Shown here: positions 38,290 through 45,780 of the stretch, one piece after another
Layout of the letters: each line of letters begins with the position of its first letter
Numbering within the stretch: position 1 is the stretch's first letter
Source of the DNA: Candidatus Vallotiella sp. (ex Adelges kitamiensis)
Lineage (GTDB): Bacteria; Pseudomonadota; Gammaproteobacteria; Burkholderiales; Burkholderiaceae
Direction of reading: 5' to 3'
Length of the DNA stretch: 64,000 nt
Assembly (NCBI RefSeq): GCF_020342435.1
Contig: NZ_CP080504.1
Location: forward strand, 87,698 to 151,697
Made by a program: the position numbers and the translations under genes
Notes under the pieces: generated by a model
The model's database searches: none
Seen by the model: only the letters and a program-made list of their open reading frames with translations
What the model was told of the DNA's origin: nothing

Positions 38290-39657
38290 TCAGCGCTGCG
38301 TAGGCGACACGCTTATAATGCTTCGAATTATCTTGGGCAAGCCCCCCCCTTGTAGCCTTCTCATCATGCTGCGCATCTGCTCAAACTGGTTTAGCATTCT
38401 ATTTACTTCTTGTATCTTCACTCCGGCGCCGGTCGCAATACGGCGTTTCCGGCTTGCTTTGATTAGTTCAGGTTTTGCGCGCTCAGCTGGTGTCATCGAC
38501 GTGATCATGCCCTCCATGCGGCGTATATGTTTTTCAACTTGAGATATGTCTGCGTTACCAGCAGATTGCTGAAATTGTGCCGGAAGCTTCTTCATCAGAG
38601 TAGATAATCCTCCTATTTTCTTCATTTGCGACAGTTGAGAGCGAAAGTCATTTAAATCAAAGACACCCCCTTTTTTCACTTTTTCAGCAAGCTTTTGTGC
38701 GGCATGTACGTCTACGCTACGTTGCGCCTCTTCAACTATCCCCAGGATATCTCCCATACCTAGGATCCGATTAGCCATGCGTTCAGGGTAGAATATTTCC
38801 AGATCGTCAAGCTTCTCACCGACGCCGATAAACTTAATTGGCTGTCCGGTTACGTATCGTGCCGACAACGCTGCGCCGCCCCGCGAGTCACTATCGAGCT
38901 TAGTTAGCACAATACCCGTTAGAGGTAACGTGTCATTAAAAGATTTTGCGGTATTAATCGAATCTTGCCCAAGCATTGCATCAATAACGAATAGTGCTTC
39001 TGCTGGCTTAAGTTGCGTGTGCAACTTAGAGATTTCCTGCATCATTCTATGGTCAATGCCGAGTCGGCCTGCCGTGTCTACAATCAATATGTCATGGTAG
39101 TGACACCTAGCCCAATTCAATGCATCTCGCGCAATATCTAGTGGATTTTGATCTTGTTGGGATGGAAAAAAATCTGCACCGACCTGCTCAGTGACTATCT
39201 GTAGCTGCGATATTGCCGCGGGCCTGTATACGTCACACGATACAGTAAGGACTTTCTTTTTCTGCTTCTCACGTAGAAGTTTAGCTAACTTGCCGACTGT
39301 GGTAGTCTTGCCGGCCCCCTGAAGACCCACGACTAAAATCACAGCTGGTGGCGTAACCGCTAGATTCAGCTCAGCTGCTTTACCATCGTAGTGACCACCA
39401 ATCAGAGCGGTTAGTTCGCGTTGTACAATGCTCACTAGCATCTGGCCAGGAGTAAAGCTGTTCACTACTTCCTCGCCTAGTGCTTTTTCGCGAACTTTTG
39501 TAACAAATTCTCGTACCACTGGCAAGGCGACATCTGCCTCAAGCAGTGCTAGTTGCACTGTACGTAGCATCTCTTGCGTATTAGCCTCGGTAAGTCGGGC
39601 TTCACCGCGTAGCGTCTTTATGACGCGAGCCATACGTTGTGTCAGGTCGTTAAGCAT
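38290..39657 (-). CDS. ffh: Signal recognition particle protein Ffh
   Basis: GTPase of the SRP that delivers membrane proteins to SecYEG with FtsY. 455 residues: N domain, G domain with GLQGAGKTT, DTAGRLG and TKLDSDSRGGAALS, and the methionine-rich M domain from about residue 330. The C-terminal MRRLQGGGLPK is encoded over a G8 tract (C8 on the plus strand at 38342-38349). The 4.5S RNA gene is not visible nearby. Confidence 0.97.
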   Translation of the reverse strand: MLNDLTQRMARVIKTLRGEARLTEANTQEMLRTVQLALLEADVALPVVREFVTKVREKALGEEVVNSFTPGQMLVSIVQRELTALIGGHYDGKAAELNLAVTPPAVILVVGLQGAGKTTTVGKLAKLLREKQKKKVLTVSCDVYRPAAISQLQIVTEQVGADFFPSQQDQNPLDIARDALNWARCHYHDILIVDTAGRLGIDHRMMQEISKLHTQLKPAEALFVIDAMLGQDSINTAKSFNDTLPLTGIVLTKLDSDSRGGAALSARYVTGQPIKFIGVGEKLDDLEIFYPERMANRILGMGDILGIVEEAQRSVDVHAAQKLAEKVKKGGVFDLNDFRSQLSQMKKIGGLSTLMKKLPAQFQQSAGNADISQVEKHIRRMEGMITSMTPAERAKPELIKASRKRRIATGAGVKIQEVNRMLNQFEQMRSMMRRLQGGGLPKIIRSIISVSPTQR

Positions 39658-39939
39658 AAGTATTGCGTGTGGTTTGCTATGGGCCGATACGAAATCGGGC
39701 CGGCATTGCAGTCGCGTTGTACATTAAAACTATATGGGGCAGAAATTAGGGCTAGCGTCAAGGTGGCTGTGTAGACTACATGACAACATGTATTGTAATG
39801 CATATAATCGCTGTCTTTTATAGAAGTCTTAGCAGCGTTGCCTAGTAACTTTATCCATGAGCGTGTGATCTATACGGCCCGATGCTAGCAGCAGGTTAGT
39901 GTGCCGTATTATTTACCTTATCGTCAATTCCATAATTCA

Positions 39940-40370
39940 TTGTGGTTATCTATAACATAAAATTTTTCCACTAATTGCCTACATCGCAGCACTGATAGGA
40001 TGGTATAAGTGACTGATGTAATGCCCCTCACTGTTTATAATTTACTTCATATTAATGAATATCGCGTATAGATTTCTGGCTATTGCTGTATTGTATAACC
40101 TTAATATTTTTAATTAAACAGGGGCTACATACGTTGTGAGGCATTGCGGATAGAGTAGGACTGAGACATCCGCGCACGACTGCTTATTAAATAGTGCAAT
40201 AGGTTGAAACCGTTGTTGATATTAAACAAATTCTATTTTGTTTACCTGCCTCAGGTTTTATATTGCACGACTGTATTTATCAGTAACGTCTAGTTTAGAG
40301 AGAAATTGGTAATTCAGGTCGTTAAACTGAATCACGAAACGGTATTCTCTTCATCTTTAAGGTTGAATTC
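39940..40370 (+). pseudogene. ypjD: Decayed ypjD (CcsA-like membrane protein)
   Basis: Divergent from ffh, where Burkholderia has a cytochrome c assembly-like inner membrane protein. Readable pieces: LLHI then NIAYRFLAIAVLY at 40058-40096 (family KLHFLIANIAYGLFAIAALH), LKPLLILNKFYFVYL at about 40204-40248 (family LPPLLTLEKLLFRL), and VVKLNHETVFSS at 40318-40353 (family LRFDHKTVFAIL). The pieces lie in different frames, with stops between. The 5' part is unreadable. Confidence 0.7.
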
Positions 40371-40659
40371 AGAATATTGCTGATATGTTCTCTATTACCG
40401 ATACAGTTAGTGTGAACTTGTATTTTCATCTAAATAGTCTGCTTTTTGTGCTTATTTATTTATCATAGCCTATTTTTTGGGTCTTTTGTCTCGCTATTTA
40501 ATTTTTATAAAGTTAAGGTATGCATCGTGATCTATGCGCTAAGGTAGAGTGGCCCAATATAGTATCAATTCAAAAATCTCGGTTTTCTTTTTGAGAAAGT
40601 TGAGCGAATAGTATCCATAAAATAACTTAATTGCGCTGTATATACCGACTCTACATCTA

Positions 40660-40920
40660 TCGATCCACCTTGCGTAGCGGGTGGAATTGTTGAAATTTGT
40701 CTCTTACAATGAGCAAGAATAGCGTGCTAGCAAATCTAGTTTCGTTAATTTCAAGGCGCTACGACGATTCTTTAAATAGTATTAAACTAGACAGTTTAAA
40801 GAATTAATTATCTACGGCACCCCAATACAATACATTAGCGCGATTACACGTATTCGGTAACTATCAGTTAGCTATTCGGATATTAGAGCTACATTTCAAT
40901 TAGCATCAGTTGTGAGATGG
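40660..40920 (+). pseudogene. ampD: Decayed ampD (anhydro-muramyl amidase)
   Basis: Follows the ypjD fossil, as ampD does in relatives. Pieces: GIVEICLLQ then stop and ARIAC at 40683-40727 (family G-x-VQFV...ARAWHAG), RRYDDSLNSIKLDS at 40754-40795 (family ERCNDFSIGIELEG), and APQYNTLARL at 40817-40846 (family AAQYDALARL). Several stops and frameshifts; the catalytic GHSDIAPGRK block was not found. Individually weak, but order and spacing agree. Confidence 0.58.
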
Positions 40921-41086
40921 AGCTTCTAGCATTATTTTTATAAATGTGTTTCGCGTGGGATATACGCAAGTGATACTTAGTTGTGTAGCATCGCAAAAGT
41001 TGCGTATCGAAGAGCTTGCAGTCAATCGTACATATCTGACCTTGGTTGCTAGCCGCGAATTTATTCATAGAACCTGGGGTAAATTT

Positions 41087-41133
41087 ACACTATAGTTAGT
41101 GTGCATTAGTATCTAATGCACTATATATTGTGT
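41087..41133 (+). promoter_or_regulatory. Tandem NrdR boxes upstream of nrdA
   Basis: Two 16-bp sites match the NrdR consensus acaCwAtATaTwGtgt. Box 1, 41087-41102, is ACACTATAGTTAGTGT (two mismatches); box 2, 41118-41133, is GCACTATATATTGTGT (one). Centres are 31 bp apart, the three-turn spacing typical of NrdR pairs. Between them, GTGCATTAG-TAT-CTAATGCAC (41101-41121) is a perfect dyad. NrdR represses ribonucleotide reductase genes when bound to (d)ATP. The sites are 155-200 bases before the nrdA start. Confidence 0.85.
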
Positions 41134-41288
41134 ATTTTGTGATGCTGTGTGTACGGTTATTTCGCCTTATTACCTTCTATCAATATCATTTTTTGGGATG
41201 GTACTACGGCAATATGCCGGATCCACGCCTGTATTCATTACGAGAATACGGATTCTGCCGCACGAGATAAGATTAGGAGGTTTTTCCC

Positions 41289-44219
41289 ATGCAACCCATC
41301 GAGAACGCTATGTCCCATCAGCCTGATGCCGCAGCACGCTTGCCGTATAGCGGTAACACTGCATATGAGTCGCGAACATTAGCACCTCAGGCGGAGTTTA
41401 CCGACTATAAAGTTATTCTCCGAAACGGGAGCGTGATGTCGTTCGAGCCATCTAAGATTACGATAGCAATAAGCAAGGCTTTTCTTGCTGTCAATGGCAA
41501 CCATGGCGCCATGTCGGCACGCGTGCGCGAATTGATTGAGACGATAACGAATAGGCTTGTACATGCGCTTATTCGCAGCCGCCCGCATGGTGGCACGTTC
41601 CATATAGAAGATATTCAAGATCAGGTCGAACTCGCGCTGATGCGGGCTGGCGAACATAATGTTGCTCGTGCCTACGTACTATATCGTGAGAAACGCGCTG
41701 CGGAGCGCATGTATAAAGTGGAACATAGGCCGGTGCAGGGAGAGCTGAGTGTCAGCGACAACGGTATTATGCGTCCACTGGATCTTACTGTTTTATGCAG
41801 CGTAATCACAGCAGCCTGCGAAGGATTCAATGATATAGTTAGTGTAGAGTCAGTCCTTGCTGAAACAATCAAAAATCTCTATGACGGTGTCCCCTTATTA
41901 AGGGTCTACGACTCGGCAATCCTTGCCGCACGCACAATGATTGAGAGAGAGCCGGCTTACAGCCAAGTTACTGCAAGGCTGCTATTACACGTGATCCGTC
42001 GCGAGGTTCTTGGTGAAGAGGTACTGCAGTCCGAGATGGAGGGGCGGTATGCAAAATACTTCGAGCAGTTCTTGAGACGAGGTGTCGAGGCTGAGTTACT
42101 CGATGAAAAGTTGCTGCAATTCGATCTTAAAAAGCTAGCTGATGCACTAGATGCATCGCGCGATCTAAAATTCAGCTACCTCGGACTACAGACGCTATAT
42201 GACCGTTATTTCTTACATATAGACGGGGAGCGCATTGAAATGCCGCAGGCTTTCTTTATGCGGGTAGCCATGGGTCTCGCGCTTAATGAAAGCGACCGAG
42301 AAACGCAGGCAATTTCATTCTACAATGTACTATCGACATTTGATTTCATGAGCTCGACACCGACGCTATTTAATTCTGGTACGCGCCGCTCACAGATGTC
42401 ATCGTGTTACTTAACTACTGTCTCAGATGATTTAGATGGTATATATGAAGCTCTAAAAGAAAACGCACTATTATCTAAATTTGCTGGCGGGCTTGGAAAC
42501 GACTGGACCCGCGTGCGTGCACTTGGCTCCCATATCAAGGGCACTAACGGAAAGTCACAGGGCGTAGTTCCGTTTCTAAAGGTTGTTAACGATACGGCAG
42601 TTGCGGTTAATCAAGGCGGCAAGCGAAAAGGTGCAGTGTGTACATATCTTGAAACTTGGCATCTGGATATCGAGGAGTTTCTAGAACTTCGAAAGAATAC
42701 TGGAGACGATCGACGACGTACACACGATATGAACACCGCAAACTGGATCCCAGATCTTTTCATGAAGCGGGTGATCGAGGGAGGCGACTGGACATTGTTT
42801 TCGCCGTCAACCTGCTCAGATCTGCATGAGAAATTTGGTACTGAGTTTGAAGAAGCATATGTCAAGTACGAAGAGAAGGCAGAATGTGGCGAACTAAAGT
42901 TGTTCAAGAAGATTCCAGCTGTGCAACTGTGGCGCAAGATGCTCGGGATGCTATTCGAGACAGGTCACCCATGGATTACATTTAAAGATCCATGCAATAT
43001 ATGCTCGCCGCAGCAGCACGTGGGTATCGTGCATTCCTCGAACCTCTGTACTGAAGTCACATTAAACACCAGCGATAATGAGATCGCGGTTTGCAATCTA
43101 GGTTCAGTTAATCTTGTGGCACATATGAAGCAGGGATTAGATGGAAGCTATGTATTAGACCACGATAAGCTTAAGCACACGATAAGCATCGCAATGCGAA
43201 TGCTCGATAATGTCATCGATATCAACTACTACGCAGTTTCTAAAGCACGCAACTCAAACTTGAGGCATCGGCCGGTCGGTATGGGTATTATGGGATTTCA
43301 GGACTGTTTGTACCTGCTACGTACGCCGTATGCGTCGCAGCAAGCGATAGAGTTTGCTGATCGCTCTATGGAGGCTGTCTGCTATTACTCATATTCAGCA
43401 TCTGTCGAACTAGCAAGCGAGCGTGGTTGCTATTCGTCTTACCATGGTTCATTATGGGATCGTGGAATCCTTCCACAGGATACGCTAAAACTACTTGCCG
43501 ACTCGAGGGGTGGTTATGTTGAAGTCGACTCATCCGAGTCGATGGACTGGGCTGCGTTGCGTGAGCGCATTACTATGCACGGTATACGCAACTCGAACTG
43601 CATTGCAATAGCACCGACCGCAACCATTTCAAATATTGTTGGTGTGTCCGCATGTATAGAGCCGACATTTCAAAATCTATATGTGAAATCGAACTTATCT
43701 GGCGAATTCACGGTCGTCAACGGATACTTAGTGAGAGACTTAAAAGCGTGCGGACTTTGGGACGAAGTAATGGTAGCCGATTTGAAGTATTTTGATGGAT
43801 CGCTAGCGCGCATTGATCGTATTCCCGTTGATTTGCGTGAGACATATGCAACCGCGTTTGAAGTAGATCCGAAATGGCTCGTGGAAGCTGCAGCGCGCAG
43901 ACAGAAATGGATCGATCAAGCGCAATCGTTGAATATCTACATGGCTAGTGCTTCGGGTAAGAAGCTAGAAGAAATATATAAGCTTGCCTGGCTGCGCGGA
44001 CTAAAAACAACGTACTACTTACGCACGCTCGCTGCGACTCATGTTGAGAAATCCACGGTTACGCGCGGTACACTTAATGCGGTGCAATCTAACATGACTG
44101 CATGCTACGACGATATTCGTACCCGTATCGATGCGAAATCACACGATGAAATCGCAGAACCAGTTTGCATGCTGAGTCCTAGTGATACAGGGTTTGATGA
44201 GTGCGAGGCTTGCCAGTAA
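41289..44219 (+). CDS. nrdA: Ribonucleoside-diphosphate reductase large subunit NrdA
   Basis: Class Ia reductase alpha subunit making dNDPs for DNA synthesis. 976 residues; AGGAGG at 41275-41280 sets the ATG. An N-terminal ATP-cone (about residues 45-140: ILRNGSVMSFEPSKI) allows allosteric control. Active-site Cys blocks are seen in MSSCYLTT and SSNLCTE, with the radical-path tyrosines near TTYYLRTLAATHVEKS, and the C-terminal redox pair CEACQ. A glycine-rich linker found in Burkholderia before CEACQ is replaced by a short stretch. Confidence 0.97.
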   Translation: MQPIENAMSHQPDAAARLPYSGNTAYESRTLAPQAEFTDYKVILRNGSVMSFEPSKITIAISKAFLAVNGNHGAMSARVRELIETITNRLVHALIRSRPHGGTFHIEDIQDQVELALMRAGEHNVARAYVLYREKRAAERMYKVEHRPVQGELSVSDNGIMRPLDLTVLCSVITAACEGFNDIVSVESVLAETIKNLYDGVPLLRVYDSAILAARTMIEREPAYSQVTARLLLHVIRREVLGEEVLQSEMEGRYAKYFEQFLRRGVEAELLDEKLLQFDLKKLADALDASRDLKFSYLGLQTLYDRYFLHIDGERIEMPQAFFMRVAMGLALNESDRETQAISFYNVLSTFDFMSSTPTLFNSGTRRSQMSSCYLTTVSDDLDGIYEALKENALLSKFAGGLGNDWTRVRALGSHIKGTNGKSQGVVPFLKVVNDTAVAVNQGGKRKGAVCTYLETWHLDIEEFLELRKNTGDDRRRTHDMNTANWIPDLFMKRVIEGGDWTLFSPSTCSDLHEKFGTEFEEAYVKYEEKAECGELKLFKKIPAVQLWRKMLGMLFETGHPWITFKDPCNICSPQQHVGIVHSSNLCTEVTLNTSDNEIAVCNLGSVNLVAHMKQGLDGSYVLDHDKLKHTISIAMRMLDNVIDINYYAVSKARNSNLRHRPVGMGIMGFQDCLYLLRTPYASQQAIEFADRSMEAVCYYSYSASVELASERGCYSSYHGSLWDRGILPQDTLKLLADSRGGYVEVDSSESMDWAALRERITMHGIRNSNCIAIAPTATISNIVGVSACIEPTFQNLYVKSNLSGEFTVVNGYLVRDLKACGLWDEVMVADLKYFDGSLARIDRIPVDLRETYATAFEVDPKWLVEAAARRQKWIDQAQSLNIYMASASGKKLEEIYKLAWLRGLKTTYYLRTLAATHVEKSTVTRGTLNAVQSNMTACYDDIRTRIDAKSHDEIAEPVCMLSPSDTGFDECEACQ

Positions 44220-44544
44220 GACATTAGTTTGTGAGTATGCGTGAGCATATTATGCATACTCACATAGAGTATGATAATGCACGTAAAGAACGTGTTAAAC
44301 GCTGTTCTACGTATGTATATAGCCTCATAATATCCGATACGTGAAAGTTACGCATATAGAAAGTAGGCGAGCATTGGAATGCGAAAGGTGTACTTTTATA
44401 GATTAAGAGAAGAAACAATATGAAGGCCTTAAAGATTAAGTATTGTATGAAGGTCTTAATACAAGGTTAGGAGCGTTTTTATCAGTGCACTTTTATCTCT
44501 AGTGCAAAGTCGGTACAATCCGATCTAAATTAATAGTGAAACTT
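44220..44544 (+). other. nrdA-nrdB spacer with a 10-bp hairpin
   Basis: GTGAGTATGC (44231-44240) and GCATACTCAC (44254-44263) form a perfect 10-bp stem just after nrdA, without a T run. An imperfect direct repeat, TATGAAGGCCTTAA / TATGAAGGTCTTAA, follows near 44419-44459. The hairpin may terminate or process the transcript; nrdB has no NrdR box of its own here. Confidence 0.55.
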
Positions 44545-45780
44545 ATGCCCAACTGGAACAATCAGATTGCTTCGGAAATTCCCACGAGTGTGACGCAATC
44601 TTCTGCACGAAAAACAATAACCGCTAGAACTATAGTACAGTCCACTGGGTACAAAGAGAAAGCTGCTAGTACGTCCTCTCTGATAACGCCAGATATTTTG
44701 GGAGGTAATATCGCTATCACTCCGGCCCAGAATCTGGACATATCATCTCCAGAGCCTAATGAAGCTCGTATAAATGTAACTGACAAGCGGATTATTAATG
44801 GCAAGACGGATGTAAATCAACTCGTTCCGTTCAAGTATAAATGGGCGTGGGAGAAGTATCTTGCTAGCTGCGCAAACCACTGGATGCCACAGGAAATCGA
44901 TATGTCCCGAGATATTGCGCTCTGGAAGGATTCAAGCGGGTTAACTAACGATGAGCGCCGTATCGTTAAACGTAACTTAGGTTTTTTCGTCACGGCCGAT
45001 TCACTTGCGGCTAACAATATAGTGCTTGGAACGTATCGTCATATTACTGCTCCTGAATGCCGACAGTTCCTGCTGCGACAGGCGTTTGAGGAGGCCATTC
45101 ACACGCATGCATACCAATATATCGTTGAATCGCTTGGATTAGATGAAGGCGAGATCTTTAATGCGTACCGTGAGGTGCCGTCGATCCGTGCGAAGGACGA
45201 ATTTCTGATTCCGTTTATCTATACGCTAACTGACCCATCGTTTAAGACTGGCACGCTTGTAGCAGATCAGCAGCTGCTAGAGTCATTAATCGTCTTCGCA
45301 TGCCTAATGGAGGGGTTATTCTTCTATGTTGGGTTCACGCAAATATTAGGGTTGGGTAGACAGAATAAGATGACTGGTGCTGCCGAGCAGTACCAGTACA
45401 TCCTACGCGATGAGTCGATGCACTGTAATTTTGGGATCGATCTAATTAATCAAATCAAGCTTGAAAATCCAAGTTTGTGGACTCAGACATTCTGCGAAAA
45501 GATTCGTGGATTATTCAAGAACGCAGTTAAACTTGAGTGCCAGTACGCAGAAGACACAATGCCGAATGGCGTGCTAGGATTAAACTCAGGGATGTCTAAA
45601 AGTTATCTTCGCTTTATCTGCAATCGGCGCTGTCAGCAGATCGGATTAGAACCATTGTTCCCGAGTGAGGAAAATCCGTTCCCTTGGATGAGTGAGATGA
45701 TTGACCTGAAGAAAGAGCGCAACTTTTTTGAGACACGAGTGTTTGAGTATCAAACCGGAGGTGCTTTAAGTTGGGAATAA
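44545..45780 (+). CDS. nrdB: Ribonucleoside-diphosphate reductase small subunit NrdB
   Basis: Di-iron radical-generating subunit. 411 residues from ATG 44545 (MPNWNNQ), which aligns with the Burkholderia start; GTG 44536 is an alternative. A poorly conserved N-terminal extension of about 90 residues precedes the core, which starts [19 protein letters not shown]. Metal ligands are in [10 protein letters not shown] and [13 protein letters not shown]. The C-terminus [12 protein letters not shown] docks on NrdA. Confidence 0.97.

Follow-up and report, generated by a model that had tools for sequence, protein, structure and literature searches.

A pair of tandem 16-bp boxes upstream of nrdA is almost certainly an NrdR operator of nrdAB, to which NrdR is predicted to bind. 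The site belongs to a known and widely conserved kind, retained here in a reduced genome.

The box pair and its locus

Box 1, ACACTATAGTTAGTGT, occupies positions 41087-41102 on the forward strand of the window (the whole stretch of DNA that was analysed, 64,000 nucleotides long). Box 2, GCACTATATATTGTGT, lies on the same strand at 41118-41133, and the two are separated by a 15-bp linker, GCATTAGTATCTAAT (41103-41117, also forward strand). Scoring was performed against ACACWATATATWGTGT, which we take to be the NrdR-box consensus. Box 1 has 2 mismatches to this sequence and box 2 has 1, which gives 3 mismatches in 32 bases. For comparison, 20 windows of 64 kb were simulated with a first-order Markov model, and the closest pair in each has 10-12 mismatches. 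At other positions of the window, the closest pair has 11, and the same site read 2 bases out of register has 10. A genome-wide search, which covered pairs with a 15-bp linker, finds this one place at 3 or fewer mismatches, and the reversed control finds none. The match greatly exceeds what chance would give, and the tandem NrdR boxes 5' of nrdA that were recognized in a preliminary description of the window are borne out. NrdR boxes in other organisms are described as 16-bp palindromes located 15-16 bp apart (PMC12051234, PMC12176259), and an E. coli reporter could be repressed efficiently with linkers of 15-17 bp, as reported in PMC12051234.

The box pair is located 155 bp upstream of the start of nrdA (41289-44219, forward strand), which encodes a ribonucleotide reductase large chain with an ATP cone (Pfam PF02867, PF00317 and PF03477). 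The enzyme is a class Ia ribonucleotide reductase. The small-chain gene, nrdB (44536-45780, forward strand; PF00268), follows nrdA. A ribosome-binding stretch, AGGAGG, and the nrdA ATG lie within 41271-41291 on the forward strand, where 17 of 21 columns are identical in three symbionts, namely this organism and its two sister symbionts. On the other side of the boxes is a reverse-strand frame that Pfam assigns to SRP54/ffh (38290-39657).

The boxes were previously said to lie in an otherwise decayed spacer of 370 bases. The decay is confirmed by remnants of a gene: two tblastn pieces (E value of 5e-10) fall within 40028-40350, and two large-genome congeners have the counterpart of this remnant as an open frame, likewise located between ffh and nrdA. 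The length, however, is incorrect, as the spacer extends for 1,631 bp from the beginning of ffh at 39657 to that of nrdA at 41289. A search of positions 39600-41400 for known RNA families gave no match up to an E value of 1. The genome carrying the window is 1.17 Mb in two contigs.

Conservation of the boxes and of nrdR

Among the 30 nrdA loci analysed, out of 54 genomes with a match, a pair with 9 or fewer mismatches is present in 27, including the window's own locus, which corresponds to 26 of the 29 relatives. In all 27, the boxes recur with a period of 31 or 32 bp, where 30-33 bp were allowed. For a set of named loci, periods of 31 and 32 bp were allowed, and 79 of 80 loci were examined, with L121 excluded on account of its short upstream region. 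A pair with 10 or fewer mismatches is found in 68 of these 79 loci, versus 1 of 395 Markov-simulated upstream regions. None of the 68 has a third box one step downstream, where the mismatches number at least 7. Judged from these relatives, the box pair is ancestral. The pair in this genome has 3 mismatches to the consensus, versus 8 in four large-genome congeners, but the consensus is AT-rich, so a closer match is partly expected in the AT-shifted symbionts.

In an alignment of the three symbionts, all 16 columns of box 1 are identical, as are 14 of the 16 in box 2. The linker is identical in 11 of 15 columns, the adjoining upstream sequence in 21 of 32, the leader in 79 of 137, the far-upstream DNA in 130 of 442, and the first coding bases in 217 of 297. 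Linker conservation does not exceed that of the coding sequence in this alignment. Selection on the boxes, which the preliminary description had proposed, is well supported by the contrast between box 1 and the far-upstream DNA, with the qualification that a share of this selection may be on the promoter.

The corresponding regulator gene, whose presence was proposed as a check, is intact. The nrdR gene is located at G000:C1:373112-373546, scores 198.3 bits against a cut-off of 124.65, and has no internal stop codon. The encoded protein is 157 residues long and has two CXXC motifs, D15, R17 and a run of arginines; D15, R17 and an RRRR motif are NrdR residues named in PMC9110341. Within the genus, nrdR is kept in 7 of 8 genomes, including 3 of the 4 small ones, and a draw of 398 genomes from the family contains 377 with an nrdR match, of which 375 are above the cut-off. 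NrdR is also reported in PMC4989314 to be conserved across the Chlamydiae studied, except for Parachlamydia acanthamoebae. The earlier statement that such retained control is rare in reduced genomes is thus too strong, given the small congeners and most of the Chlamydiae in that report.

Among the nrdA loci scored, no clean correlation was found between loss of nrdR and loss of the boxes. The pair is kept, and nrdR was not found, in G016 (7 mismatches), G208 (8), G280 (8) and at the first nrdA copy in G052 (9). G208 is assembled in 680 contigs and G280 is 89% complete, and nrdR may merely be missing from these assemblies. In the AT-rich G020, where nrdR was likewise not found, the pair at 9 mismatches is doubtful. 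The pair is not recognizable, and nrdR again was not found, in G014 (15 mismatches), G034 (15), G064 (12) and at the second copy in G052 (14). Genomes with nrdR that were scored alongside have pairs at 6-9 mismatches in 7 of 7 cases. Because boxes persist in genomes without a detected nrdR, their conservation alone is no proof that NrdR is used, and the promoter may contribute to it. Genomes lacking nrdR that were left unscored comprise those whose only ribonucleotide reductase match is distant (G027, G028, G070, G071, G084, G085, G093, G102 and G111), those with no such match (G010, G012 and G033), and one further genome outside this list.

The small-genome congener G005 has no recognizable nrdR, and its box 1 is damaged (11 mismatches in all, with a 17-bp linker; L009, L051 and L085). 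This genome offers a natural case with which to compare the loss of control by NrdR. In two other genomes, G118 (L063) and G327 (L056), two and three weaker nrdR matches occur, respectively, as if the gene were broken, and the box pairs remain, with 8 and 7 mismatches. The 1.2-Mb genome G016 (L025 and L057) has an additional box-like stretch 32 bp upstream of its pair.

Probable promoter overlap and proposed control by NrdR

Box 1 probably contains the -10 hexamer of a promoter. The presumed hexamer, TATAGT, is at 41091-41096 on the forward strand, and the same place is occupied by TATACT in 28 of the 68 named loci with a pair, by TAGAAT in 10 and by TACAAT in 6 (44 of 68 together). The commonest cores of box 2 in these loci do not resemble a -10 hexamer (TAGATA in 12, TATATC in 11 and TAGATG in 9). 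Hexamers similar to TTGACA are enriched 16-18 bp upstream of the box 1 core, with a mean match of 3.5 of 6 versus 2.1-2.4 at four control spacings, and the -35 hexamer is weak by eye in this genus. Transcription would start at about 41102-41105. A simple promoter scan does not list TATAGT as a -10 hexamer, and instead lists TTTACA-17-TAGTAT at 41084-41112. Matches to that scan are at the level of chance (1 found, 1.4 expected), and the -10 of this match reads TTGTAT in both sister symbionts.

Across nrdA promoters of Burkholderiales, the core of box 1 takes the forms TATACT, TAGAAT and TACAAT, and also GC-rich forms such as TACCGG. Because this core varies, the sequences suggest that the position of the promoter relative to the boxes may differ among groups of Burkholderiales.

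In the proposed mechanism, plentiful dATP would lead an NrdR tetramer carrying ATP and dATP to grip both 16-bp boxes and bend the DNA. Since the presumed -10 lies inside box 1, bound NrdR would cover TATAGT and block RNA polymerase from starting. When dATP falls, NrdR would release the DNA, and nrdAB would be transcribed from a start point a few bases past box 1. Nucleotide sensing, tetramer binding and DNA bending are carried over by analogy from other bacteria, and we infer the promoter, its start point and repression for this organism.

Overlap of NrdR boxes with the site of RNA polymerase is described in other systems (PMC2892513, PMC9110341, PMC12176259). The arrangement resembles that of nrdAB, nrdHIEF and nrdDG in E. 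coli and Salmonella, as presented in PMC2892513 and PMC12176259, in that two 16-bp palindromic boxes with a linker of 15-16 bp precede a ribonucleotide reductase operon and overlap the polymerase site, an overlap that is probable here. It differs from E. coli nrdAB, in which the box in the -10 region lies outside the high-affinity pair; the box that seems to hold the -10 hexamer here is one of only two, and its binding is predicted. A pair of E. coli nrdAB boxes that includes the one at -10 is reported to bind NrdR weakly (PMC12176259), which is a warning with respect to box 1. Tandem boxes are also found in the nrdRJ operator of Streptomyces coelicolor, where one bound tetramer turns the DNA sharply (structure 7P3F, described in PMC9110341), although the organism, the class of ribonucleotide reductase and the promoter all differ from those considered here. 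In a comparative-genomics study of Proteobacteria, NrdR is given as the most widespread of the factors analysed, with 186 regulons in 20 regulogs (PMC5343134).

Alternatively, conservation of the boxes could mostly reflect the core promoter, in a symbiont whose NrdR control is by now weak or gone. Consistent with such an explanation, box 1 and the -10 seem to overlap, and box pairs are kept in several genomes in which nrdR was not found. However, the symbiont's nrdR gene is intact and encodes the key residues, and box 2, on the downstream side of the presumed -10, is almost as well conserved as box 1. The pair is also nearer to the consensus than are those of the large-genome congeners, with AT bias as a caveat. 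We therefore consider the core-promoter explanation very unlikely, and favor an operator that would be bound by NrdR.

With an NrdR operator at this location, an insect-symbiont lineage that is poor in regulators appears to have kept its feedback control over the supply of deoxynucleotides. This lineage is reported in PMC8692619 to have only a handful of transcription regulators left; the terms "nrdR" and "nrd" are absent from the main text of that paper. Apart from this setting and the comparison offered by G005, the biology of the site is ordinary.

The inverted repeat and other box-like sites

An inverted repeat with perfect 9-bp arms and a 3-base loop, GTGCATTAG-TAT-CTAATGCAC, lies across the gap between the boxes at 41101-41121 (no strand assigned). 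The perfect 21-bp dyad that was noted in the preliminary description as spanning the gap and overlapping both box ends is thus present. Its proposed role, as the site of a second regulator or an aid to NrdR cooperativity, is unsupported, and the dyad is very probably incidental, the pairing of the linker being perfect by coincidence and in this genome alone. Dyads with arms of at least 9 bp and loops of 0-8 bases occur 7 times in the window, this one included, and 1, 1, 3, 4, 5 and 4 times in six Markov windows, so dyads of this quality are not rare here. The outermost bases of the repeat are bases of the boxes (GT of box 1 and GCAC of box 2), and the remainder is AT-rich linker.

Comparison with relatives, which had been proposed as a check, finds no dyad except for partial forms in the closest of them. 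At the window's register, all 9 pairs form here, 8 form in G002, 6 in G004, and 6 in G005, which has a longer linker. In four large-genome congeners, 4, 4, 4 and 3 pairs form, and the other 22 loci of the 30-locus set have at most 5. For L025, the comparison used a box pair that lies in the expected register and scores the same as the best-scoring pair, which it replaced. No more than 6 of 9 pairs form in the 68 named loci. On the evidence of these relatives, the dyad was rejected as a conserved element.

The possibility that the dyad is a motif recurring at several targets of a second regulator was also considered and rejected: the genome has one perfect place, the other two places have 3 mismatches each, and no regulon is seen. 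Dyad-like places at 3 or fewer mismatches number 3, 2, 2 and 2 in four genomes, versus 0, 0, 0 and 1 for the control, which is a small excess. The only hint of selection on the dyad, and a weak one, is the pair 41104/41118, which reads C-G in this genome but T-A in G002, a difference on both sides. The three symbionts form an unresolved fork, which gives the changes in the dyad no direction.

The dyad might nonetheless be a separate element, either a binding site for a second regulator or a linker shape that helps NrdR bind cooperatively, and this is compatible with a real operator. The center of its perfect 9-bp arms lies 1 bp away from the middle of the box pair. When the linker is randomized while the boxes stay unchanged, an arm of at least 9 bp centered there arises in 0.06% of 40,000 linkers, which would be rare for a place chosen beforehand, although this one was noticed afterwards. 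The near-complete pairing in the sister G002, with its two-sided change, and the slight excess of dyad-like places over the reversed control also point in this direction. However, pairing declines to 6 of 9 in the third symbiont and further in the large-genome congeners and named loci, the genome has a single perfect place and two others at 3 mismatches, and the outer pairs are made of box bases. Moreover, three sequences joined at an unresolved fork cannot show covariation. A separate element is very unlikely on balance.

Alternately, the dyad could act in RNA, also without conflict with a real operator, as a 7-bp 5' stem-loop that shields an nrdA message beginning near 41103, or as a weak terminator. 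A predicted RNA starting at 41103 folds as GCAUUAG-UAU-CUAAUGC with a free energy of -7.2 kcal/mol, and a terminator scan finds one site here where 0.2 would be expected. The fold is not exceptional, however, with a z-score of -0.84 and 36 of 200 shuffled sequences folding equally well; each of the two sister symbionts has another fold for this stretch, the T run in the tail, TATATATTGT, is poor, and the start point near 41103 is itself predicted. A function in RNA is accordingly most improbable. We would give equally little credence to the idea that, in a genome that has lost most of its regulators, a new dyad arose within the linker in this symbiont lineage, at the start of transcription, and serves as a second control element, whether as a 5' stem-loop, a bending aid or a site for a second protein. 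Chance pairing of the linker within an NrdR operator is the preferred explanation.

A wider NrdR regulon in this genome was also considered and rejected, as single boxes with 3 or fewer mismatches are no commoner than matches to a reversed-pattern control (35 versus 39). Two further single boxes with 1 mismatch are found, at G000:C1:253323 and at G000:C1:325399, the latter inside an open frame. The former (G000:C1:253323-253338; L086:1024-1039) is an isolated NrdR-like palindrome within a stretch of approximately 970 bp that has no frame of at least 70 amino acids.
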